DNA from: an uncultured Flavobacteriales bacterium
GTDB taxonomy: Bacteria; Bacteroidota; Bacteroidia; Flavobacteriales_D; Parvicellaceae
DNA length: 64,000 bases
Assembly (NCBI GenBank): GCA_913030835.1
Contig: CAJWDP010000001.1
Coordinates: 124,001-188,000, forward strand
Reading direction: 5' to 3'
A program made the position numbers and the translations under genes. How positions within the stretch are numbered: the stretch's first letter is position 1; the number at the start of each line of letters is the position of its first letter. The notes beneath the pieces were generated by a model. The model saw only the letters and a program-made list of their open reading frames with translations, did not search any database and had not been told where the DNA came from. Positions 26,637-39,299 of this stretch are shown one piece after another.

Positions 26637-27044
26637 TTAAATGGGTATGAATTCAAATTGCATGGAGGTTAGGTCTTCAAATTCTCTTCCTGCCTCTTCT
26701 ATGTCCTCGTCCATTTCATCATACGCCCACTCAATTTTTAAGCGAATATTTTCGCTGCTACTGTCAATTTCATTGATTTTAAGCAATAGGTCCATGATGT
26801 ACTTTGCTGAGGATGAATTAAAATACTCAAAATGAAAGCGAACAGTGTGGTCTTCAGAATTTCCAAATTTTTGGGTACGGTAATACAATTGCCCACCCCA
26901 GTCTTCGATCCATTTCATGATCGGCTCATAAAAATCAGACACATGTTCGGGCCTACTCTCCCCCTTCAAGAAATACGTATTGCTTTCTAAATCCATCAGG
27001 ACTTCCGGCGAGTTGTCCGTTTGTTCAATTTTTAATGCTTTCAT
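26637..27044 (-). CDS. siaC: SiaC-family regulatory phosphoprotein
   Basis: A 135-residue cytoplasmic protein of the SiaC/DUF1987 family, the regulated partner in Sia-type switches. The family pattern is clear: an N-terminal SPEVLMDLESNTYFLKGESRPE strand region, FYEPIMKWIEDW, and FHFEYFNSSSAKYIMDLL. The NSSS stretch (residues 76-79) occupies the place of the phosphorylated threonine of the Pseudomonas protein, so phosphorylation by the adjacent SiaB-like kinase and removal by the adjacent PP2C are expected (inference). It is 9 bp after the TPR-PP2C gene. No diguanylate cyclase SiaD is present. Confidence 0.9.
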   Translation of the reverse strand: MKALKIEQTDNSPEVLMDLESNTYFLKGESRPEHVSDFYEPIMKWIEDWGGQLYYRTQKFGNSEDHTVRFHFEYFNSSSAKYIMDLLLKINEIDSSSENIRLKIEWAYDEMDEDIEEAGREFEDLTSMQFEFIPI

Positions 27045-27053
27045 AATTAAGTC

Positions 27054-28991
27054 TTATAGTCTAACTCCTAAAATTAATACGTCGTCTATTTGTTCTCTTC
27101 CGCTCTTCCAATTGTCAAAAGTTACTGAAAATTTGTCCTTTTGCTCATTCATGGTTTTAGTTGAATTGTCTCTCAACATTTCCCTAAACCTCTTTGGATA
27201 AAACTTCTTCCCGTCATTGCCTCCTTTTTGGTCGTAGAACCCATCTGAAAAAAGATAGACGGCATCTCCTTCTTTGCATGCAATTTCTTCACTGTTAAAA
27301 TTCTCATGTCCTAGTTGCTGTCCTATGTGAGTTTTACTTCCTTTTATTTCAATTATTTCATCGTTTGAAATTCTAATCATGGAGTTTCTTGATCCGGCAA
27401 ATAAAACCTTCTTTCTCGTGACGTCCACATTGACGATTACAATGTCTAGCCCATCTTTAATGGATACAGATTTGTTCTTTTTTATGTCGCCATTGCTAGG
27501 CTTTAATAAGTTGTACAGGTCATCGTTTAGGTGTTGCAATATTTCTGATGGTCCTTTGACTCCTTGATGCTTCACTATTTTCTCCAAGCTACTTATCGCC
27601 AAAACTGACATAAATGCCCCTGGAACGCCATGGCCTGTGCAATCAGCCACGGCAATTATACAATTATCAGAGTCTAGGAAACACCATGAAAAATCACCCG
27701 AAACAATGTCTCTCGGTTGGTTGTAAATGAAATGTTCATCAAATCTGTCTGAAAGTAATTCGTTACTGACCAGTAATGCATTCTGAATTTTTCTGGCATA
27801 AGAAATGCTATCCAAAATGTTCTTGTTTTTTTTATCCAGCTCAACATTCTGTTCTGCGATCTGCTCGTTTTTTTGTTTCAGCTTGCGATTGTTTCTTACA
27901 TACATTAGCACGAGTGCCAGCATCAAAATAGAAACCGAACCTATCGCGATTAGCCAGGCTCTAAAGCTATCGGCTTCTGCTTTTTCTTGTTTAAGCTCTG
28001 CTTCTTTCTTGGCAATTGTCAGATTCTTTTTGTCTATCGCATTTTGTTGAGCCTCGGCCTGTCGCTCATTAAGAATAAGCTGACTTTGCTGATTCAATAG
28101 TTTAAGCTCTTTAACTTGGTTCTCAACGCTTAAATTTTCGATTTCTTTTAATGATTTGACATTCGCTTGTTCTATGTTTTCAATGTATTTTTCGTTTTTT
28201 TCCTTGACGTCCTGATCAAAGCCGGTTAGCTGTTCGTTTTTGTTGGACTTGTTCTGTTCGATGTCCTTGATCGTCGATTTTATTTGCCCCTCCACAACCT
28301 CCATCTTTGATTCTTTTGCAATTTTCAATGCTTTGTTCAACCTTGATAAAGCTGACTCATAATCTCCATAGTTTGCATAAACTCTTCCTTGGTTGAGAAG
28401 TGTATTCGCATAGCTTTGCGGCTCATCCAATTCTTTATAAAGCTCGCTTGCCTTTTCATAGCTGGAAATTGACTCCTTCAGTTTTCCGGCTTTAAAGTAG
28501 TTGTATCCTATCCGAGAGTGGATTGACGCTATAGCTTTGGCATTGTTTCCTGATGATGTTATTGCGCTTTCATAGCTTGCTATTGATCTTGTGTGGTTGC
28601 CAAGCTCTGAGAAGCAAAACCCCAAGGACTCATATGCGTAGGAAGTTAGCTCAGGCTCTTGCTGGGATTCAGATATTCGAACTGCCGAATTATAAAAAGA
28701 TATTGCTCGTTTAAAGTTCTTGGATTTTTTACTGGCATTTCCTCCGTTGATCTGGCCTCTCAGTTCCTGTTTTGCATCTTGTTGATGTTTCGCATGGATA
28801 ATTGCCTGATTCGCATGAATTACTGCGTTTTGGTATTCTTTTTTCGAAAAATATAGCTCCGATATCGTGTTCTCGATGTTTGCTTTTTTTCTTTCGTCAG
28901 CACTTGAAAGCTCTGATTTGAGCGATGCAATATCTTGAGCGCAAATGTGATGCGCAAAAAACAACAATATGATTGTTCCGAAGACTCTCAT
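27054..28991 (-). CDS. TPR sensor with SpoIIE-type PP2C phosphatase (SiaA-like role)
   Basis: A 645-residue membrane phosphatase. Signal peptide at 1-18 (ending HHICAQ), periplasmic TPR repeats at about 30-240 (YESLGFCFSELGNHTRSIASYESA and following), a long coiled coil (about 260-340), one transmembrane helix at about 344-365, the linker ILDSISYARKIQNALL, then the PP2C domain (about 415-645) with DIVSGDFSW, ADCTGHGVPGAF, DGLDIVI, LFSDGFYDQ and QIDDVLILG. It probably dephosphorylates SiaC in response to a periplasmic cue. The ATG directly follows the siaB stop codon. Confidence 0.93.
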   Translation of the reverse strand: MRVFGTIILLFFAHHICAQDIASLKSELSSADERKKANIENTISELYFSKKEYQNAVIHANQAIIHAKHQQDAKQELRGQINGGNASKKSKNFKRAISFYNSAVRISESQQEPELTSYAYESLGFCFSELGNHTRSIASYESAITSSGNNAKAIASIHSRIGYNYFKAGKLKESISSYEKASELYKELDEPQSYANTLLNQGRVYANYGDYESALSRLNKALKIAKESKMEVVEGQIKSTIKDIEQNKSNKNEQLTGFDQDVKEKNEKYIENIEQANVKSLKEIENLSVENQVKELKLLNQQSQLILNERQAEAQQNAIDKKNLTIAKKEAELKQEKAEADSFRAWLIAIGSVSILMLALVLMYVRNNRKLKQKNEQIAEQNVELDKKNKNILDSISYARKIQNALLVSNELLSDRFDEHFIYNQPRDIVSGDFSWCFLDSDNCIIAVADCTGHGVPGAFMSVLAISSLEKIVKHQGVKGPSEILQHLNDDLYNLLKPSNGDIKKNKSVSIKDGLDIVIVNVDVTRKKVLFAGSRNSMIRISNDEIIEIKGSKTHIGQQLGHENFNSEEIACKEGDAVYLFSDGFYDQKGGNDGKKFYPKRFREMLRDNSTKTMNEQKDKFSVTFDNWKSGREQIDDVLILGVRL

Positions 28992-29543
28992 TTATTTAAC
29001 CTTCAGACGCACTTCAAGTAGAAAGAACTTTTTATTCTCATCCACATCCTGAAAAGTATAGTCTAAATTTCCTTCGCTATTGATCGCTATTTGTAGCATT
29101 CCAAGACCTGCTCCTCCCTTATTAGACACCTCCCCACCAATTAATTGTTTTTGATAGGCAGACTTGATTTCTTCCTGGGACTGGTTTTTGATCAGTTGTA
29201 GTCTGTTCTCCAACTCATTAATATTCTCTGTTTTTACCATGTTTCCACTATGGATTATAATGTGATCATCCCTTTTTGACACATTCAAAATTCCAAACCG
29301 GTCGCCATAAACTACATCTTCTGTGGTGTGTCTGGTGATGTTTTCTATACATTCAACAAAGCTGGAATACACTTTTTTGAAAATGAGTCTCTCCATACTG
29401 TCCGAATCCAGATTTTCCTTAAATGTGTTGATCAGGTGGTTCGAGATTTTGAATGACACATTCCCGAAGTAACACATTAAGATTTCGTGATCCTTCAAGT
29501 CTTCAAAGAGGGAATAAACATACCTGGGAGATAATGAAGTCAT
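28992..29543 (-). CDS. siaB: SiaB-family protein kinase
   Basis: Cytoplasmic GHKL-fold kinase of 183 residues. An N-box-like SSFVECIENITRHT and a glycine-rich GGAGLGMLQIA ATP-lid motif are visible. No phosphoacceptor histidine domain is present, as expected for a Ser/Thr kinase of the partner-switch type. First gene of a three-gene operon siaB - TPR-PP2C - siaC with 0 and 9 bp gaps, which strongly supports kinase, phosphatase and substrate acting together. Confidence 0.9.
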   Translation of the reverse strand: MTSLSPRYVYSLFEDLKDHEILMCYFGNVSFKISNHLINTFKENLDSDSMERLIFKKVYSSFVECIENITRHTTEDVVYGDRFGILNVSKRDDHIIIHSGNMVKTENINELENRLQLIKNQSQEEIKSAYQKQLIGGEVSNKGGAGLGMLQIAINSEGNLDYTFQDVDENKKFFLLEVRLKVK

Positions 29544-29824: not shown

Positions 29825-30640
29825 ATGAGTCTTAAAAGTTTATTAGTCCCTGTTGACTTTAGTGATGTGTCAAGAGTCGCCATGGAGCACGCCGCAAAAC
29901 TTGCGGAAACCATCGATGCTTCCGTAGTGTTGTTGAACGTTGTTGGAAGTGCTGAAGAAGTGAATCCGGCGAAATTAAAATTGGCTGAGGAGGTCAAGAT
30001 TATTGCAAACTCAAATTCAAACATTGATGTTCGAGTAGCTGTAAGAATCGGAAACATTTTTGAGGACATTGCTGAGACTGCAGCTGAAGAAAGTGCCGTT
30101 TTGATCATTATGGGCACTCATGGAGCAAAAGGATGGCAAAAGCTTACGGGTAGTCATGCGCTGAAAGTAATAACCAGCTCAAAAGTTCCTTTCATCGTTG
30201 TGCAAAAGAAGGGGATCAAGAATACCGGGTATGATGACATTGTTGTGCCTATGGATCTTGGTGTGCACTCGAAACAAAAACTTGAGACCGTTGCAGAGAT
30301 TGCGAAATATTTTGACTCACGCGTTCACGTTTTTGCTGATCGGGTAGAAAGTGAGGCTGCAAAAGTGAAAAGCAACATTATTTTTGCTCATAAATACTTG
30401 TCGGAAAGAAATGTAAAGCACGACACTAAAGTTGCTGAGAAAGCAGGAGGTTTTGATGAGCAGGTTCTAGCTTATTCGAAAGAAGTAGATGCAGACCTAA
30501 TTGTAATCATGAATGAAGGCGGGGGTATGTTTGGTGGAAAGCACGAACAGGCGATGATTACCAATTCTGACGAAATCCCGGTAATGACGGTTAATGCAAA
30601 AGAATCTGGAAGAACCGGCGGGACTGTTTTTTCGCGTTGA
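29825..30640 (+). CDS. tandem universal stress protein (UspA-like)
   Basis: Two Usp domains in one 271-residue cytoplasmic protein. The first (about 1-130) starts KSLLVPVDFSDVSRVAM and has the ATP-binding pattern MGTHGAKGWQKLTGSHALKVI. The second (about 137-271) starts YDDIVVPMDLGVHSKQ and has lost the canonical Gly-rich nucleotide motif, suggesting only one site binds ATP. Divergent from siaB. Usp proteins respond to growth arrest and stress. Confidence 0.92.
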   Translation: MSLKSLLVPVDFSDVSRVAMEHAAKLAETIDASVVLLNVVGSAEEVNPAKLKLAEEVKIIANSNSNIDVRVAVRIGNIFEDIAETAAEESAVLIIMGTHGAKGWQKLTGSHALKVITSSKVPFIVVQKKGIKNTGYDDIVVPMDLGVHSKQKLETVAEIAKYFDSRVHVFADRVESEAAKVKSNIIFAHKYLSERNVKHDTKVAEKAGGFDEQVLAYSKEVDADLIVIMNEGGGMFGGKHEQAMITNSDEIPVMTVNAKESGRTGGTVFSR

Positions 30641-30750: not shown

Positions 30751-33700
30751 CTAGTCTTTGTAGTTGTCCTCTTTCAGGCGCTGCTTGATTTCGTCGAGAT
30801 GCTTCATCTTCTTTTCCTGTCTTAGGGAAATCGCACTTTTCGTAAAGTATTTGTGCATGGTCAGAAATTTGACTTGAATCTCATCCCACATTCGGTCTGA
30901 GTTGATTTTGCCATGCTCTCTAAGCTCTACACGCAGTGTGTCTGAAATCTCATGAAAATCATCTCTCCCTAGATAGTCCAAGTCCGCGTCGCAAATGATT
31001 TCCTCTAGTTTGGACTGCGGATTGTGCGGAATGATTGTCGCATAAATGAGTTTAAAAACCATCTCCACCTGCTCCGGAGTATATCCATATTTAGGTAAGA
31101 TTTCAGCCGCCATATTTGCTCCTATAGGCTCGTTGGCATCATACTGTTCAACAAACCCGGCATCGTGATACGTTGCAGCAGACTTCAACACAAATATGTC
31201 CTCGTCCAACACTCCTTCCATGATAGCTATTCTCTCCGCCGCTTTTACCACATCATAGGTATGGTGTATCCCGTGATAATAGAGTTTAGGTGATAGTTTT
31301 TGCTTTAGAATCCGCATAATGTGTCGTTCCGCCTTTTGATAGTTGATCGAACTATAGACATGCAAGTTGACGTAATCCCAGAATCTCCGGTTTGGTGTTA
31401 CTCGATCCTCATTTTCTGAAAGGTGCGGCTTAATCCCATCAACAAAGTACATATCAATGTGGCCTTTGTTTTTGGCGGGAATTTTTCCTCTGTAAGTGCA
31501 GTCGAAATAGGGTTCGATGTATTCAAAGGTTTTTCCGGATACATTTACCTTTCCCACTTCTCCACTTTGCTCCATTCTTGCTGCAACATTAACAGAATTG
31601 CCCCAGATGTCGTATGCAATCCTTTTCGTTCCAATCACGCCAGCGATGACTTCACCTGTATGAATGCCTACTCTGAGCTGCCACCCCTCCTCTTGCTTGC
31701 CTTCTTCAATGTTTTTTTGCCTTGTCGCTTTGACATAATTCTGGATCTGTAATCCTGCTATTACCGTATTTATGGGGTTTTCTCTATCTCGAAGAGGTAT
31801 TCCCCCAGCCGCCATGTAGGCATCTCCAATCGTTTTGATTTTCTCAACATGATTGGATTCAACAATATTATCGAACTCCTTGAAGTAATTATCTAATATC
31901 CTCACAAGTTCCTGTGGTTTGATTGCTTCTGCATGGGATGTAAATCCAACAAAGTCTGTGAAAATAACCGATACTCTTTTGTAATTTCTTGTTCTTGCCT
32001 TTCCTTTATTTTTTAGTTCTTCTGCGGTTTCTCCGGGAAGGATATTTGCCAGAAGTTTGTCTGCTTTGTTTTTCTCCTGTTCTACCAAAGCTTTTTGTTT
32101 TTCCAGCGTCGATTTTTGTTCTTCTATCTTTTCTTTCTGTTCCGTGACGGTTCTAGTTCTCAGCTCTACCAATCTTGCCAAGGTTTCTTTTTGAACTTTG
32201 ATCGAATTGATTCTCCATCGCTGCAATAGAATGATCAGCAGTATCACAGCAACAATCAAAAACCCTCTGAACCACCATGTTTGCCAAAATGGAGGGGTAA
32301 CAATAATGCGGATGGTGGCGGGTTGGTCAGACCAAAACCCATCTGAATTTGAACCGAACACTTTGAAGGTGTATTCTCCTGGAGCCAAGTGTGTGTAATG
32401 AGCTTCTCTCCTGTTTCCAACTTCGTTGAAATTTTCTTCGTCGCCCTCAAGAATGTATTTGTATTGGTTTCCTTCGGGATGGGTATAGTGTAATCCCGCA
32501 TATCCAAAAGTGATGTTAGATTGTGTATAATCAAGCACGAGTTCCTGGGTAAATGAAGGGGCGTAGTTTATAACACTGCTGTTTTGCGGGTCTAGTGGCT
32601 TGTTAAACAGCATAATCTCTGTGATTGCCATTCTCGGCGGTGTTTTGTTTTCCTTAATGTCTTTAGGGTAAAAAGCATTGAATCCGTTTATGCCCCCAAA
32701 AAAAAGTTCGCCATTATCGGAGCGATGATATGCGCCTGTGTTGAATTCGTTGCTTTGAAGTCCGTCTGTAATTAAAAACGTCGTAAATAATTCGCTATCT
32801 ATATCCAACCGGCAAATGCCCAGGTTTGTGCTCATCCAAATTGTTCTTTTTTCACCTCCGATAACTCCATAAACCGCATTATTGGTTAGGCCATCTTTCT
32901 CCGTGTAAGTTTTAAATCTCTTTGTGACGGGGTCAAGCCTGTTTAGTCCGCCGCCATACGTGCCGGTCCAAATGGAGCCATCTGAATCTTCCCATATAGA
33001 AAGCACGAGGTCTGAGCTTATCGAGTTAGCATCAGAAGGGTTGTGCCTAAATGTTTTGAATTTAAACTCTTCTTTTCCGTTTTTTTCTGAAACTACCAGC
33101 TTACACAAGCCCTCTTCTGTTGCTATCCAGTAGTTGCTTTTTGAATCCAGCATAACGGATCTACAAATGTCAGTTGGCAAAGAGTTTGGATTGTCTATAC
33201 TGTGCTGAAAAAAAAGAGCCTCCCCGGTGGTCGTGTTGTACCTTCCCAATCCTTCTCTGCATGCAAGCCACAGGAATTCTCTATCTCTTATCATTTCATA
33301 AACTCTGGTGTGCTTGTATCGATCTTCTCTAAAAGCAACCGGGATGTACTTGGCCGACTTTAAATCCGATGATAGGTCGACCTTATAGAGTCCGTCTATT
33401 GAACCCGCCCATATAATTCCATCTGATCCAAACTCAATTGCATTGATGCTGTTGTTGTTTGGTTCGTTCGGGTTGTTTCCCTTGAACGGGTAGTTGTTGA
33501 CTGTGCCGTTTTCCCGATCTATTCGGGCTATGCCCTCTCTGTTTCCTATCCATACGATCCCATTCTTATCTTTCTTAATGGTCCAAATATTGTCGTCTAG
33601 CAACCCTTCGTCACCATAGTCTCCTTTTATGTGCTCAAACGCTTGTTTTAGTGGGTCAAATTTGCTGACTCCTTCTTGAGTTCCAATCCAAATTGAGCCT

Positions 33701-34665
33701 GAATTGTCGCCTATCATGGAATACACGATCTGGTGACAAAGGCTTGTTTCATCAAAGTCGTTTTTAGTAAAGTTGTTCACCTGAACTCCTTTGTCTTTTA
33801 TAAAAATCTGATCCAGCCCCTTACCCTCGTAGCCACACCATACAGTACCCGATTTTTCAGTAAATATCACATTTACATTCTCACCTGAAAGTCCGTCTTT
33901 TATGCCGTATCTTGTGAATTGGTTGCCGTCAAATCGGCTGATCCCTTTATTTGTTGCCAACCAAATTCTATTTAAATGATCCTGAAAGATGTCGTTCACA
34001 AAATTGCCGTTGAGCGAGTTGCTATCTTCACTGTTGTAGCGGAAATTGTCAAAAGATCTATGGTTTTTCTGCAGAACATACAATCCCTTTCCATGAGACC
34101 CAGCTAAAATGTCTCCTCTCTTGTTAATATTTAGTTTGTTGATTACTGCCGCGCCCAGTCCGTCTCCCGACCCATATTCTACAATGGATGAATCTTTTGT
34201 TGAAAACCTCAATAATCCGCCCCCTACATTTCCAGACGCCACCCATAGGTTACCATCCCTGTCCATTGCAAGAGAGTTGATCTGCCCTCCTTCAAGTACT
34301 TCGTGGCCACGAAGTCTAGTGAAGGTCTCCTTTTTTGGGTCAAATACATTTACTCCTCCACTCTCTGTTCCAATCCAAAACAATCCATTGTCGTCTTGTA
34401 TGATGTTCTTTATATAGCTATTGGATAATGAATTGATGTTGGAAGGGTCGTGTTTAAAAACATCAAATGTATATCCATCAAATCTGTGCAAACCATCCTG
34501 AGTGCCAACCCATATGAATCCGTGGCTATCCTCAATCATTGCATTTGCCGAGCTTTGAGTCAAACCGTCTTCCAACGTGTAATTATCAAATCGAATGCTT
34601 CTCGTTTGCCCATGGGCGGAAACAATAAAAACGACAAAAAACAAAAATGTAAATATGAATTTCAT
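30751..34665 (-). CDS. propeller receptor with adenylate cyclase and HD domains
   Basis: A 1304-residue membrane signalling protein. Signal peptide 1-19; Reg_prop beta-propellers about 25-670 (repeated GxIWxGTxxG); Y_Y_Y domain about 705-790; transmembrane helix about 797-815; coiled coil 825-885; class III cyclase 895-1075; HD domain about 1110-1270. The cyclase has metal Asp D904 and D948, adenine-specifying K944 and D1019, and N1026/R1030, all as in ATP-using enzymes. The HD core shows H1131, H1134/H1135, H1167-D1168 and D1226/D1228. It should make cAMP on binding a periplasmic ligand. The HD part might hydrolyse cAMP or another nucleotide (inference). Confidence 0.93.
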   Translation of the reverse strand: MKFIFTFLFFVVFIVSAHGQTRSIRFDNYTLEDGLTQSSANAMIEDSHGFIWVGTQDGLHRFDGYTFDVFKHDPSNINSLSNSYIKNIIQDDNGLFWIGTESGGVNVFDPKKETFTRLRGHEVLEGGQINSLAMDRDGNLWVASGNVGGGLLRFSTKDSSIVEYGSGDGLGAAVINKLNINKRGDILAGSHGKGLYVLQKNHRSFDNFRYNSEDSNSLNGNFVNDIFQDHLNRIWLATNKGISRFDGNQFTRYGIKDGLSGENVNVIFTEKSGTVWCGYEGKGLDQIFIKDKGVQVNNFTKNDFDETSLCHQIVYSMIGDNSGSIWIGTQEGVSKFDPLKQAFEHIKGDYGDEGLLDDNIWTIKKDKNGIVWIGNREGIARIDRENGTVNNYPFKGNNPNEPNNNSINAIEFGSDGIIWAGSIDGLYKVDLSSDLKSAKYIPVAFREDRYKHTRVYEMIRDREFLWLACREGLGRYNTTTGEALFFQHSIDNPNSLPTDICRSVMLDSKSNYWIATEEGLCKLVVSEKNGKEEFKFKTFRHNPSDANSISSDLVLSIWEDSDGSIWTGTYGGGLNRLDPVTKRFKTYTEKDGLTNNAVYGVIGGEKRTIWMSTNLGICRLDIDSELFTTFLITDGLQSNEFNTGAYHRSDNGELFFGGINGFNAFYPKDIKENKTPPRMAITEIMLFNKPLDPQNSSVINYAPSFTQELVLDYTQSNITFGYAGLHYTHPEGNQYKYILEGDEENFNEVGNRREAHYTHLAPGEYTFKVFGSNSDGFWSDQPATIRIIVTPPFWQTWWFRGFLIVAVILLIILLQRWRINSIKVQKETLARLVELRTRTVTEQKEKIEEQKSTLEKQKALVEQEKNKADKLLANILPGETAEELKNKGKARTRNYKRVSVIFTDFVGFTSHAEAIKPQELVRILDNYFKEFDNIVESNHVEKIKTIGDAYMAAGGIPLRDRENPINTVIAGLQIQNYVKATRQKNIEEGKQEEGWQLRVGIHTGEVIAGVIGTKRIAYDIWGNSVNVAARMEQSGEVGKVNVSGKTFEYIEPYFDCTYRGKIPAKNKGHIDMYFVDGIKPHLSENEDRVTPNRRFWDYVNLHVYSSINYQKAERHIMRILKQKLSPKLYYHGIHHTYDVVKAAERIAIMEGVLDEDIFVLKSAATYHDAGFVEQYDANEPIGANMAAEILPKYGYTPEQVEMVFKLIYATIIPHNPQSKLEEIICDADLDYLGRDDFHEISDTLRVELREHGKINSDRMWDEIQVKFLTMHKYFTKSAISLRQEKKMKHLDEIKQRLKEDNYKD

Positions 34666-34810
34666 TTCAAGAGCTGACCATTTGAATTCGCGTCAGTAGT
34701 TCTAAGATAGTTTATTCTAAAGAAAATCTTGTTTAATTCTAGTGCCAAAAAATATCCGCATTGTTCGATCTGTTGAAGATTCCAGAGTGACCCGTTTCTT
34801 TTGGCTTACG

Positions 34811-36637
34811 TTATATTCTGACTCCTATGACAAGAATGTCGTCAATTTGTTCGTAGTTGCCCCGCCAACTCTCAATTTTTTCGTTTAGAATTTCACCCTG
34901 CTCTTTAATTGGAAGGTTTTTTATCGACATTAGAGTTTCCCTGAATTGTTTGTACATAAATTTCTTTCCTTTTTCTCCTCCAAACTGATCTGCGTACCCA
35001 TCTGAAAAAATGTAGATCAGATCTCCCTTCTGAATATCGATTGAATGATTCGTGTATTCCTGCTCTCCATACTCAAAGCTGCCTATCGCAAATTTATCCG
35101 CTTTAGTTTGAGTTATTTCATCCCCTCTTAGCTGGTATAGTGGATTGTTTGCTCCGGAATATTCCATTTTTTTGAAATCTTTTGAAAAAGAAATCATTGC
35201 CAAGTCCATGCCGTCACGAACATTCGAATTTCCTTCAGACTTGTTAAGTGATTCGGAAGTGATCCGATTCAATTCTGTCATAATCTCAGCTGGAGTATTG
35301 GTTTTTGTTCCTTTCACCGCAATATTCAACGCATTCGCTCCAACCAGCGACATAAAAGCCCCTGGAACACCGTGTCCGGTGCAATCAACTGCCGCCAGGT
35401 GTATTTTGTCTTCTGTTTCTTCTAACCAATAAAAATCTCCTGAAACAATGTCTTTCGGTTTAAAAAGAACGAAAGAATCGGGAATCAAATTGGTTATCTT
35501 GGAATCTGGTGGCAATATAGAGTCTTGAAGCCTTTTTGCATATTTAATGGAGTCGGTTACGTCTTTATACAACTCCTCTATCCGCATTTTTTGTTGCTCA
35601 AGCTCCCCCTTCTGTCTAACAACTTCCTCTGTTCGCTCAATCACTTTTTGCTCTAAGATTCTTTCATTCTCTGCCAAATCATCCCGCATTTTCATAAGCG
35701 CGTGGCCAAGTGTATCCTCGTCAGACATTGGTTTATAATCGTAATCAAAATTGCTTTGCCCCACATGGTTAGCGAATTCGGTAGTATGATTAAGCCCTTT
35801 AACCAAATTGTTCATTGCCACCGACATATCGCCTATTTCATCGTTGCTCGGCTGTATCAAACCCTCAGGAATTTTTCCTTTTCCTAGCTTTATGAGCATT
35901 CCTTTGAGTTTGTTCACCGGTCTAGTGATTGACCTAGTGGTCAGCAATGCGACTACAATTCCAACAGCAAAGAGTAGAAGTGCAAAATATAAAACTAGAT
36001 TGATTAGCCTTTTGCTCTCATCTTCTGCTAGTCCGAAGGCAGTATTCATTTCAACTGTTCTTCTTTGGTTGTCAGCGCGCACCGTTGCAATTAATTGATC
36101 CAGCCCTCTCGTTACTTTTCTTGCTTTCGAAAGCATAATTCCATCATCTGCAATTAAGAATGTGGCTTGCATGTTATTGAAAACACTATCGTAACTTGCT
36201 AGGTTCGGGAATAAATTTTGAATCTCTCTATATCTTAAAAACAATTCATCCAGCTCTCTAAAAACAACATCAATTGAGTCCTGAACACTAATTGGCAGGC
36301 TGTCCTTATTTGAGATCAGGCTGGGCTTGATGTCCATAGGGAGAATCGTATCCTTGATTTTAAGAAATCTTTTTTTGTCGGGATGTTCAGTGTAAGAAGG
36401 AACTGTTGCCCAACGAACAATCAGGTTCTTAGATTCTTCTACATTGTCACGCAGGCGCTGCAAGTTTGACAAGGCGGGAGAAGAATATGTTTTAATGAAT
36501 TCGTTCTGATTAATTCCCTCTGAGAGTGTTATGAGGTTGGATTTTGTAGTGCTATAAGTAATAACAAATACGACGACAACCAAAGTCAAGAGAACACCGA
36601 ATCCCAACCCCATCTTTAGTCCAATTGTCAGCCTCAT
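34811..36637 (-). CDS. HAMP-linked transmembrane PP2C phosphatase
   Basis: A 608-residue sensor phosphatase. TM1 at about 10-29, a helical periplasmic domain (about 30-210), TM2 at about 212-233, HAMP at 234-285, a coiled coil to about 360, the linker DSIKYAKRLQDSILP, and a PP2C domain at about 385-608 with DIVSGDFYW, VDCTGHGVPGAF, DGMDLAM, FSDGYADQFGG and QIDDILVIG. It resembles a chemoreceptor whose output is a phosphatase. It lies between the TPR/YfiR genes and the cyclase gene, all on the minus strand, so it may receive a signal from the periplasmic YfiR protein (inference). Confidence 0.93.
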   Translation of the reverse strand: MRLTIGLKMGLGFGVLLTLVVVVFVITYSTTKSNLITLSEGINQNEFIKTYSSPALSNLQRLRDNVEESKNLIVRWATVPSYTEHPDKKRFLKIKDTILPMDIKPSLISNKDSLPISVQDSIDVVFRELDELFLRYREIQNLFPNLASYDSVFNNMQATFLIADDGIMLSKARKVTRGLDQLIATVRADNQRRTVEMNTAFGLAEDESKRLINLVLYFALLLFAVGIVVALLTTRSITRPVNKLKGMLIKLGKGKIPEGLIQPSNDEIGDMSVAMNNLVKGLNHTTEFANHVGQSNFDYDYKPMSDEDTLGHALMKMRDDLAENERILEQKVIERTEEVVRQKGELEQQKMRIEELYKDVTDSIKYAKRLQDSILPPDSKITNLIPDSFVLFKPKDIVSGDFYWLEETEDKIHLAAVDCTGHGVPGAFMSLVGANALNIAVKGTKTNTPAEIMTELNRITSESLNKSEGNSNVRDGMDLAMISFSKDFKKMEYSGANNPLYQLRGDEITQTKADKFAIGSFEYGEQEYTNHSIDIQKGDLIYIFSDGYADQFGGEKGKKFMYKQFRETLMSIKNLPIKEQGEILNEKIESWRGNYEQIDDILVIGVRI

Positions 36638-36671
36638 TGATTGTTTACTTAAGTATTATACAGCCTCCCTT

Positions 36672-37562
36672 TTATTCGTTTCCGTGAGAGCCCTCTAATT
36701 TAAGTAACTTTTGATTATAAAACTCGTATTTTTCGGTTTCATGCAAAGCATAGTATGCTCCTGCCAAGGCTCTTATCACACCGGGATGATTAGGCTTCAG
36801 TGTATAGGCCTTTGTCATGTAGGCTAAAGAGCGCTGCATGTTGTTCACGTGTTTTTCCTGTAGTTCCATCACCTCTAAAATGGAAAGCTCTGGTTTCGTT
36901 TTCACCAGCAGATCAACCGCAAGGTTGTGGTATAGAACGCCACTATTTAGGTTCGCAAGAAAGTCGTTGGAGTCTATCTCAAGTACTTCATTGAACATCT
37001 CTGTCGCTTTCTTGAAATAAATTTCGTTCTCTTCTTTATTGTCGTTGTATCTGTCCATATAAATGATTCCCGACTTTTTCTTAATCGCAAATTCTCTTTC
37101 CTTGTTGTAGTATCCCGGCTCAACCAGTCTCATTGTTATGTTGTGCTTATCTAGGTCTTTCAGTGCGCCCTGAACATTGAACCTATTTAGTTTTCTAACT
37201 CCGTCATTATAGAAAGAAACGCCTAAAGTTTTTATCCCTTGTTTGTTGTTCCTGCTCAGATCTCCAATTGTATCCAGTTCGAGGGATTTATCAAATGATT
37301 CTATGGCAATTGCTCTTGCTGAAGAGCGTTTGTCTGGGTTTTTGGAGTTATCGAAAATACTCTTATACACAAACCCTCTGATGTGCCAAGCATAAGCATC
37401 TTTACTCTCCGAGGAGTCTTCAATTGATGCGTCAATATACTCAGCTGCACAAACCAGGCTATCCTGCTGATAACAGCTCAATGCCTTTTGCCAATTCGTT
37501 CGCTGAGCGAACCCGGTGGTTGCAAGCAACAAGATAATTGATATGTACAATCCTCTCTTCAT
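36672..37562 (-). CDS. secreted TPR-repeat protein
   Basis: A 296-residue protein with a signal peptide (MKRGLYISIILLLATTGFAQ) and TPR-like helical repeats, clearest at about 195-285 (DFLANLNSGVLYHNLAVDLL, PNHPGVIRALAGAYYALHETEKYE). No enzyme motifs. The start lies 2 bp after the YfiR gene stop, and the HAMP-PP2C gene follows 34 bp later. It probably acts as a periplasmic scaffold of this signalling set (inference). Confidence 0.85.
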   Translation of the reverse strand: MKRGLYISIILLLATTGFAQRTNWQKALSCYQQDSLVCAAEYIDASIEDSSESKDAYAWHIRGFVYKSIFDNSKNPDKRSSARAIAIESFDKSLELDTIGDLSRNNKQGIKTLGVSFYNDGVRKLNRFNVQGALKDLDKHNITMRLVEPGYYNKEREFAIKKKSGIIYMDRYNDNKEENEIYFKKATEMFNEVLEIDSNDFLANLNSGVLYHNLAVDLLVKTKPELSILEVMELQEKHVNNMQRSLAYMTKAYTLKPNHPGVIRALAGAYYALHETEKYEFYNQKLLKLEGSHGNE

Positions 37563-37564
37563 AC

Positions 37565-38089
37565 TTATTGCACCTCAACGGCTAAACTTGAAATCTGTTT
37601 GCCTATGACGAGCTTACTTTTTGTTGCGTTTGACTTGCTTAATTCAAACATTGTTCTGTTGGATGGGTAAACAAAATTTATGATGGAACCATCCACTAAG
37701 ACACCCTTTTTACTTGTTATCACAAGGGTTGAGTTTGTCTTCAGTATTTTCCTCTTTGACGAGATAACGTCACTTTTGGTTTCATCCACATACAATATGT
37801 GGCACTCTCCGATGTCATCCGGGCTGTTGAATTCTACAATTTTAAATGGTTGGCTTCCCCTCTTTGAGGAGGATAGTTTGCTTACTAGTTGCTGAAAAAG
37901 TTCTTTGTCTCCATATACACCAATTACAAAGTTCCCCGACTTAAACTTTTCAGGCCAATCTACCTGAGTTGCAAAGCTGTAGAAGTATATTGCTTTTTGC
38001 GCCGCTACTGCCTTTCTGGCACCACCTTGCCCGTATCCTGAAGCGGACAAAAACAGCAAAGAAACGGTTATAATGATAAGAACTCTCAC
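37565..38089 (-). CDS. YfiR family periplasmic protein
   Basis: A 174-residue exported protein (signal ending SASGYGQ) with the YfiR/DUF4154 pattern: KAIYFYSFATQVDWPEKF at the start, FVIGVYGDKELF, ECHILYVDETK and the C-terminal GSIINFVYPSNRTMFELS. In Pseudomonas, YfiR represses the diguanylate cyclase YfiN in the periplasm. Here no GGDEF protein is near, and the membrane partner downstream is a HAMP-PP2C. Start codon GTG. It heads the four-gene minus-strand set. Confidence 0.88.
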   Translation of the reverse strand: MRVLIIITVSLLFLSASGYGQGGARKAVAAQKAIYFYSFATQVDWPEKFKSGNFVIGVYGDKELFQQLVSKLSSSKRGSQPFKIVEFNSPDDIGECHILYVDETKSDVISSKRKILKTNSTLVITSKKGVLVDGSIINFVYPSNRTMFELSKSNATKSKLVIGKQISSLAVEVQ

Positions 38090-38194: not shown

Positions 38195-38749
38195 CTAGTT
38201 AATTTTCTTTTTATTACGCTTCACTTTTGTTGGCGCAGCATTTTTGAGTCCCAGTTTTGGTGGGTCAGATTTTTTACTCCTGTTTCGCGCCTTTTTCTTT
38301 TCGTGTCTCCTATCAGAATATCGGAAAGAGTCTCTCTCGTTCTTTCTTTTTCGACCAGCAAGTCCTTTGTTTTTTTGGTTTGGTCTAAACGGATCTTGCT
38401 CTTGAAGCTTGTCTTTTGATAGCCTAAGTGTGTTCCTTCTTTTTTTTCTTTTGTTTTTTGAACTAAACGCTGATGTCGCATTCTTTCTGTTCTTTTTTGC
38501 GACTTTTTTATCTGCTTTTTTACCGTATCGGTCTAGTTTTGATCTTCTTTTGAATGAATCAAGCTCCTTTTTTGATGTTTTTTCATACTGCTTGAAACGG
38601 TAGGTATTTTTCTGCGGCTTTCGCTTGTTTTTGTTTTTTCTTTTATCCGCAAGGAGTTTTTTGCTGTTGGTTCCCTTCTGCGCACAGATACTATTCGCGT
38701 TAGCGGTAAGCAGAATAAAAGCAAGTGGTATGTAAACTATTAGCTTCAA
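38195..38749 (-). CDS. very basic secreted protein of unknown function
   Basis: A 184-residue protein with a signal peptide (MKLIVYIPLAFILLTANANSICAQ). The mature part is about 40% Lys plus Arg (about 65 of 161 residues) with no recognisable domain, and it is low in hydrophobic residues and predicted disordered. It starts with TTG, 3 bp after the ferritin stop. It could bind anionic surfaces such as nucleic acid, LPS or polysaccharide. The function is unknown, but the frame is supported by the signal peptide and the tight spacing. Confidence 0.7.
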   Translation of the reverse strand: MKLIVYIPLAFILLTANANSICAQKGTNSKKLLADKRKNKNKRKPQKNTYRFKQYEKTSKKELDSFKRRSKLDRYGKKADKKVAKKNRKNATSAFSSKNKRKKRRNTLRLSKDKLQEQDPFRPNQKNKGLAGRKRKNERDSFRYSDRRHEKKKARNRSKKSDPPKLGLKNAAPTKVKRNKKKIN

Positions 38750-38752
38750 TAA

Positions 38753-39262
38753 TTATTCCAATGGTTGGTCTTCAGGGGTTAGGTTCTCCAGATCTCTGTC
38801 AAACAAATACAGTCCCGCTTTTTCGTTTCCTATCATTTGAAGTTTGTCCATGATTGTTCTTGCTGTTGCCTCTTCCTCTAGTTGCTCTGCTACATACCAC
38901 TGCATAAAATTGTGCGTGGTATAGTCTTTTTCTGACAAGCATATATCAACCACTTCGTTTACATGGTTCGTCACTTTTATTTCGTGCTGTAGAAGGGTTT
39001 TGAAAATCTCTACTATTGATTCAAAGTCCTCAGGCGGTGCTTCAAGCTCTGGAATGAGTGCCTTACCCCCCCGTTCATTCACGAATTTTATCAATTTGAG
39101 CATGTGTTGTCTTTCTTCGTCAGAATGCTCGTACAAAAACTTTGCCGTGCCGACTAATCCTTCAGTTTCAGCCCAAGAAGCCATGGCTAGATAAAATTGA
39201 GATGACTGCGCTTCAATTTTTATTTGATGATTTAAGGCTGATTCGACTTTTTCGTTTAACAT
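38753..39262 (-). CDS. ftnA: ferritin
   Basis: Cytoplasmic iron-storage protein of 169 residues from the ATG at 39262 (MLNEKVESALNHQIKIEAQSSQ). Ferroxidase ligands are visible in the four-helix pattern: E in KIEAQSSQFY, the E-x-x-H of YEHSDEERQHMLKL, and E residues in FMQWYVAEQLEEEATA. The typical non-haem bacterial ferritin length applies. A minus-strand -7 box lies at 39299-39292. Confidence 0.96.
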   Translation of the reverse strand: MLNEKVESALNHQIKIEAQSSQFYLAMASWAETEGLVGTAKFLYEHSDEERQHMLKLIKFVNERGGKALIPELEAPPEDFESIVEIFKTLLQHEIKVTNHVNEVVDICLSEKDYTTHNFMQWYVAEQLEEEATARTIMDKLQMIGNEKAGLYLFDRDLENLTPEDQPLE

Positions 39263-39291
39263 AATGTTGTAATTTTTCAACTTGATTGTCA

Positions 39292-39299
39292 CAAAAATA
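39292..39299 (-). promoter_or_regulatory. candidate -7 box for ferritin
   Basis: Minus-strand TATTTTTG matches TANNTTTG and lies 29 bp upstream of the ferritin ATG. No good -33 element was seen. Confidence 0.35.

Follow-up and report, generated by a model that had tools for sequence, protein, structure and literature searches.

To our knowledge, work on YfiR has dealt almost exclusively with its role as a brake on diguanylate cyclases. The DNA analyzed here, a 64,000-nucleotide window from an uncultured Flavobacteriales bacterium, carries a yfiR gene in a genome where no GGDEF protein was found, and 58 of 60 related genomes have none over the cut-off. What does this YfiR control? The initial annotation placed it in a set of four genes, and the four open reading frames are present and co-directional on the minus strand at 30751–38089. 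Their domains are also as it described: Pfam detects DUF4154, HAMP (1e-5), SpoIIE/PP2C (1.6e-18), Guanylate_cyc (9.6e-50), and HD (6.6e-7), and TPR weakly. The periplasmic YfiR/DUF4154 protein (37565–38089; PF13689, 6.9e-24, over the cut-off) has a signal peptide and is encoded by the single DUF4154 gene of the 3.14-Mb window genome. Its conserved residues include F39, W45, P46, and H97. A secreted TPR-like protein of 296 residues (36672–37562) follows 2 bp after yfiR, and next come a receptor phosphatase (34811–36637), a 145-bp gap (34666–34810), and a receptor with two-component-type propeller, Y_Y_Y, transmembrane, class III adenylate cyclase, and HD segments (30751–34665).

We searched 60 genomes of one Bacteroidota order and read the neighborhoods around YfiR, which is present in 43 of them. 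The order YfiR, secreted TPR protein, and HAMP/PP2C receptor on the same strand was found in 40/40 main-copy loci, several of which have the receptor cut by a contig end. The YfiR/TPR gaps in these loci range from −19 to +4 bp, with a 4-bp overlap the commonest, and the TPR/receptor gaps range from −1 to 71 bp. TPR orthologs always sit between YfiR and the PP2C receptor. The sole exception to the unit order is L071, where G004 carries an additional, divergent YfiR. The whole unit is missing from genus g2 (L096) and genome G053 (L102), and there ferritin adjoins the cyclase gene. Ferritin lies upstream of the unit in most loci of the order, as in the window (38753–39292, minus strand; its true start may be an internal ATG). 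These data overturn the possibility that the linkage is confined to this genome, and they show that the arrangement is not accidental. The yfiR, tpr, and siaA-like genes are a conserved, tightly packed three-gene unit that forms the core of the locus.

The receptor has the architecture TM, four-helix periplasmic domain (about residues 31–212), TM, HAMP, PP2C. The NCBIfam SiaA model covers its PP2C half (1.6e-72) and linker and leaves the periplasmic part unmatched; the score of 245 of 700 bits is below the full-length equivalog cut-off. A PDB sequence search with the PP2C domain returned Pseudomonas SiaA as its sole match (6k4e, 1.6e-39). The SiaA active-site residues D457, D474, G477, D600, G601, and D653 (PMC7647112) map to D401, D418, G421, D546, G547, and D600 of the receptor, which are invariant in 34 orthologs. 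The PP2C domains of the unit score 200–245 bits against the SiaA model, compared to 31–45 bits for the other PP2C class. Judged by sequence, the PP2C of the unit is SiaA-type with an intact active site. Mean conservation is 43% in the periplasmic part and 67% in the PP2C. The window YfiR matches the NCBIfam YfiR equivalog weakly (18.9 of 85 bits), a YfiR profile found no match among PDB sequences, and the mature protein contains 0–3 Cys in 34 sequences and one in the window. The TPR assignment comes from sub-threshold Pfam matches (2.5e-4), and Pfam detects no OmpA/PAL domain in the unit.

The periplasmic domain of the receptor is associated with YfiR. An AF2 model of residues 1–299 predicts a four-helix bundle that resembles the NarQ and chemoreceptor sensor domains through weak matches (E above 0.001). 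A CHASE8 identity was considered and rejected; Pfam finds none, and when profiles were compared, the HAMP was the only part that aligned to a CHASE8 receptor. YfiR is rare outside the order (24/296 phylum genomes), and a profile of the periplasmic domain alone is found in 5/296 of these genomes, all among the 24 that are YfiR-positive (hypergeometric 2.3e-6, not phylogeny-corrected). G203 (L077) has a receptor 18 bp from YfiR whose output is GAF-PAS instead of PP2C; a single BLASTP search of L077 with the periplasmic domain missed this receptor, and the profile search recovered it (periplasm-only E 3.4e-16). A second YfiR/PP2C receptor pair in G046 (L225, 4958–7030) is divergently arranged, an independent rearrangement, and has the domain, with the HAMP and the TPR partner absent. 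Partial Mantel tests gave r 0.29 (p 0.001) for YfiR and r 0.34 (p 0.0005) for TPR against the periplasmic domain after control for ferritin, HAMP, and PP2C distances, and this co-variation is still confounded by rate and phylogeny; the comparison with the propeller covers 8 genomes only, too few to be informative. We regard these correlations as supportive but not strong. Two distant genomes, G106 and G243, encode the receptor domain at a locus apart from that of YfiR, and in G040 a similar domain has a HAMP-GAF output and no YfiR was found. The four-helix domain is a YfiR-associated sensor domain that occurs almost only in YfiR-bearing genomes.

These data bear out the earlier suggestion that YfiR has a local partner other than a GGDEF protein, namely the HAMP/PP2C receptor; the 40/40 loci, the L225 pair, and the tracking of YfiR by the periplasmic domain all back it. 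Together with the SiaA-type PP2C and the missing GGDEF proteins, they lead us to favor, with a probability of about 0.6, the reading that SiaC phosphorylation is set by a SiaA-type phosphatase which YfiR and the TPR protein gate, the whole acting as one periplasm-to-cytoplasm input module. The separate loci of G106 and G243 and the YfiR-free domain of G040 count against this reading.

The fourth gene encodes a receptor in which Pfam finds Reg_prop (3e-33), Y_Y_Y (7.4e-12), Guanylate_cyc, and HD. The features of an ATP-type class III cyclase are present (two metal Asp, the Lys/Asp of ATP selectivity, the transition-state Asn, and the Arg), and D904, D948, K944/D1019, N1026, and R1030 vary little or not at all across 21 sequences. 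The HD motif H1131/H1135, H1167-D1168, D1226 is invariant in 21 sequences. The HD model has a mean pLDDT of 93.8 and YpgQ as its nearest fold, followed by PDE5/PDE4; a sequence search of the HD against the PDB gave no match. Genus g4 has a short cyclase-HD form. Family f2 has a stand-alone HD protein (about 53% identical to the HD domain) behind the phosphatase in the place of the cyclase (L046:10904-11488, L048:5935-6525). G042 keeps the three-gene unit and has a cyclase-domain remnant with four stop codons (G042:C38:11695-12153).

The cyclase gene is directly behind the unit in 15 loci, that of the window among them, and direct linkage is found in genera g1, g4, g5, g6, g7, and g9. Two genes lie between in g3. 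In L049 and L207, and across a contig break in G046, unit and cyclase are separated by two genes, one of which encodes a Band-7 protein. Linkage also occurs in L120, where ferritin, unit, and cyclase are together, and in f11 across a contig break. Gaps of 145 and 197 bp are found in the window genus only, and the gap is 2–53 bp in the other 13 directly linked loci. A cyclase promoter in the 145-bp gap, as the initial annotation proposed, is generally unsupported given these short gaps. None was predicted in the window gap, where a promoter and terminator scan did not rise above chance with a sigma-70-type consensus that does not cover Bacteroidota promoters. In many relatives the cyclase gene probably shares a transcript with the unit.

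This close spacing speaks for a linear four-gene pathway, an extension of the proposal in the initial annotation, in which YfiR and TPR act on the phosphatase, the phosphatase acts via SiaC or directly on the adenylate cyclase/HD receptor, and cAMP replaces c-di-GMP. The recurrence of the linkage across genera of the family and in L120 and f11, the HD kept alone behind the phosphatase in f2, and the intact cyclase residues point the same way. However, in L096, L102, L117, L118, and L123 the cyclase adjoins ferritin and no unit is present, and in the last three the order is RNase R < > ferritin > cyclase-HD < Usp with no YfiR. Conversely, the unit is present and the cyclase ortholog absent in f3, f7, and f9, and the two are unlinked in genus g8 and G055. 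Cyclase-HD proteins are widespread in named Bacteroidota genomes, often flanked by ferritin and Usp where no unit is present, and this common neighborhood could account for the proximity; the window has a convergent universal stress protein gene downstream (29825–30640, plus strand; Pfam Usp 1.4e-25), and other families have one at the same position. The cyclase also has its own periplasmic sensor. Since the cyclase occurs without the unit and the unit without the cyclase, the cyclase is a facultative, separable neighbor, and the linear pathway is doubtful. The four genes do not form a single four-gene system: the YfiR-TPR-PP2C linkage of the proposed set recurs, and the cyclase is not an obligate member of it.

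In the favored gating reading the candidate substrate is SiaC. SiaC and SiaB are each found in 56/60 relatives, and both are present in 41/41 unit-bearing genomes. The four genomes without SiaB and SiaC also lack the unit (p 0.008, uncorrected); one of them, G041, has YfiR only, with no TPR or PP2C. SiaC is nearly ubiquitous in the order, so its co-occurrence with the unit is weak. The inspected SiaB-SiaC pairs elsewhere in the relatives have no PP2C adjacent. G042 has one SiaC and two SpoIIE-PP2Cs. Against the SiaA model, the PP2C of the unit's type scores about 200 bits, a value taken from an ortholog at the same genus-level locus (L063 = G042), and the second PP2C scores 31 bits. Neither G042 nor G013 has a SiaA-type phosphatase besides that of the unit. 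The residue at the SiaC T68 position is Thr in 24, Ser in 5, and Ile in 1 of 30 sequences. SiaC is proposed as the substrate because of the 41/41 co-occurrence, the PP2C-free SiaB-SiaC pairs, and the content of G042.

The window genus has a cassette 1.2 kb downstream of the cyclase gene, beyond Usp, with all three genes on the minus strand. It encodes a SiaB-family protein kinase (28992–29543; NCBIfam SiaB_fam_kinase 7.8e-39, over the cut-off; PDB 6kko chain A, 2.8e-12), a secreted TPR/TM/SpoIIE-PP2C protein recognized by Pfam and NCBIfam (27054–28991), and a SiaC phosphoprotein (26637–27044; Pfam SiaC 1e-28) whose Ser77 aligns with SiaC Thr68. This SiaC has its own TPR-PP2C. Membership of the cassette in the conserved unit was rejected; it is at this position in the window genus only (L032, L106), and SiaB-SiaC is at other loci outside it. 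The window genome as a whole has 7 SiaC, 5 SiaB-family, and 19 SpoIIE-PP2C matches and no GGDEF, which describes an expanded partner-switch network. These numbers make the choice of SiaC substrate less certain. The PP2C could instead act on another STAS/anti-sigma-antagonist partner in a sigma-factor partner switch, with the SiaB/SiaC co-occurrence as background, as the weak association and the many PP2Cs of the window genome would allow. However, the PP2C is specifically SiaA-like, with scores well separated from the other class, and G042 and G013 offer no other phosphatase of this type. We consider a different STAS partner unlikely.

A further proposal is that, in bacteria without c-di-GMP synthases, a YfiBNR input side is joined to a SiaA-type phosphatase, and that a Ser/Thr partner switch drives the adenylate cyclase/HD receptor, with cAMP in the place of the c-di-GMP of both parent systems. 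We judge this combination quite improbable, and cAMP is a possible output.

The initial annotation left out the downstream SiaB/TPR-PP2C/SiaC cassette (26637–29543) and, upstream, the ferritin gene and a gene for a secreted polybasic protein (38195–38749, minus strand), the fifth gene of the run in the window's family. The polybasic protein has a pI of 11.4, 40% K+R in its mature part, repeated DPF/DSF motifs, and low complexity. In families f1 and f10, equivalents separate ferritin from YfiR (L037:14538-14942; L035:4059-4781). An iron or envelope operon, in which ferritin, the polybasic protein, and the three proteins of the unit act in iron or surface homeostasis and the phosphatase is not under YfiR control, would fit the usual upstream ferritin, the polybasic gene between it and YfiR, and the TonB receptors that precede YfiR in other Bacteroidota, but it is very unlikely given that the receptor periplasmic domain tracks YfiR. 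Ferritin adjoins the cyclase where the unit is missing and therefore marks the genomic site and not the module.

The gating module could operate as follows. Exported YfiR would bind the receptor periplasmic domain and hold the phosphatase in one state. Binding is proposed by analogy, since in YfiN the target of YfiR is a CHASE8/PAS domain, which this receptor does not have. The secreted TPR protein may act in the periplasm as a further component, modulating either the receptor or YfiR as a functional stand-in for YfiB. An envelope signal would then switch PP2C activity through the HAMP, and the PP2C would alter the phosphorylation of a SiaC substrate of the kinase SiaB at the Thr/Ser of the T68 position. 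Once dephosphorylated, SiaC may bind an effector, which cannot be SiaD. We infer both the SiaC substrate and the gating by YfiR and TPR. The propeller-cyclase-HD protein would be a second, separable receptor whose cyclase makes cAMP or a related nucleotide that the HD may degrade. If this is correct, periplasmic regulation by YfiR would extend to HAMP receptors in general, and the unit would provide the SiaB-SiaC switches of these Bacteroidota with the phosphatase and the input that have been missing. Among the papers searched, none describes DUF4154/YfiR in Bacteroidetes, YfiR with PP2C, or DUF1987 with SpoIIE.

The unit combines elements of several known systems. YfiBNR is the tripartite c-di-GMP system of Pseudomonas and E. 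coli (PMC3375315, PMC4887326, PMC4655355). It shares with the unit an exported YfiR-family protein encoded next to a HAMP membrane receptor with a periplasmic domain, and a co-encoded third envelope component. The output here is PP2C, whereas YfiN is PAS/CHASE8-HAMP-GGDEF; the periplasmic domain is a predicted four-helix bundle and not PAS/CHASE8; the third component is a TPR protein in place of the PAL-type outer-membrane lipoprotein YfiB; and YfiR lacks the two Cys pairs (PMC4655355). Beyond the order, the neighbors of YfiR are TonB receptors and CHASE8-HAMP histidine kinases, or YfiR is itself fused to kinases, with fusions to histidine kinases seen in other Bacteroidota (L092:3612-5744, L095:3818-5653). 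These TonB receptor-YfiR-CHASE8-HAMP-HK loci resemble the unit in pairing YfiR with a HAMP receptor of exchanged output, and differ in the input domain. They agree with the output swapping in the available part of PMC3375315, where the YfiR-linked outputs are HK, HPT, GGDEF-EAL, and MCP and do not include PP2C. SiaABCD of P. aeruginosa (PMC7647112, PMC8457831) has the HAMP-PP2C protein SiaA, the kinase SiaB, and SiaC with Thr/Ser at the T68 position in common with these genomes. In contrast to that system, there is no SiaD/GGDEF here, and the SiaA-type protein is encoded apart from SiaB-SiaC, with YfiR and TPR as its partners. The class III cyclases with a C-terminal HD of Bacteroidota share the cyclase-HD architecture, which here is linked to a YfiR unit. 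The comparison suggests that an established signal receiver now feeds another kind of output, with YfiR joined to a membrane phosphatase in bacteria that almost all lack GGDEF proteins.
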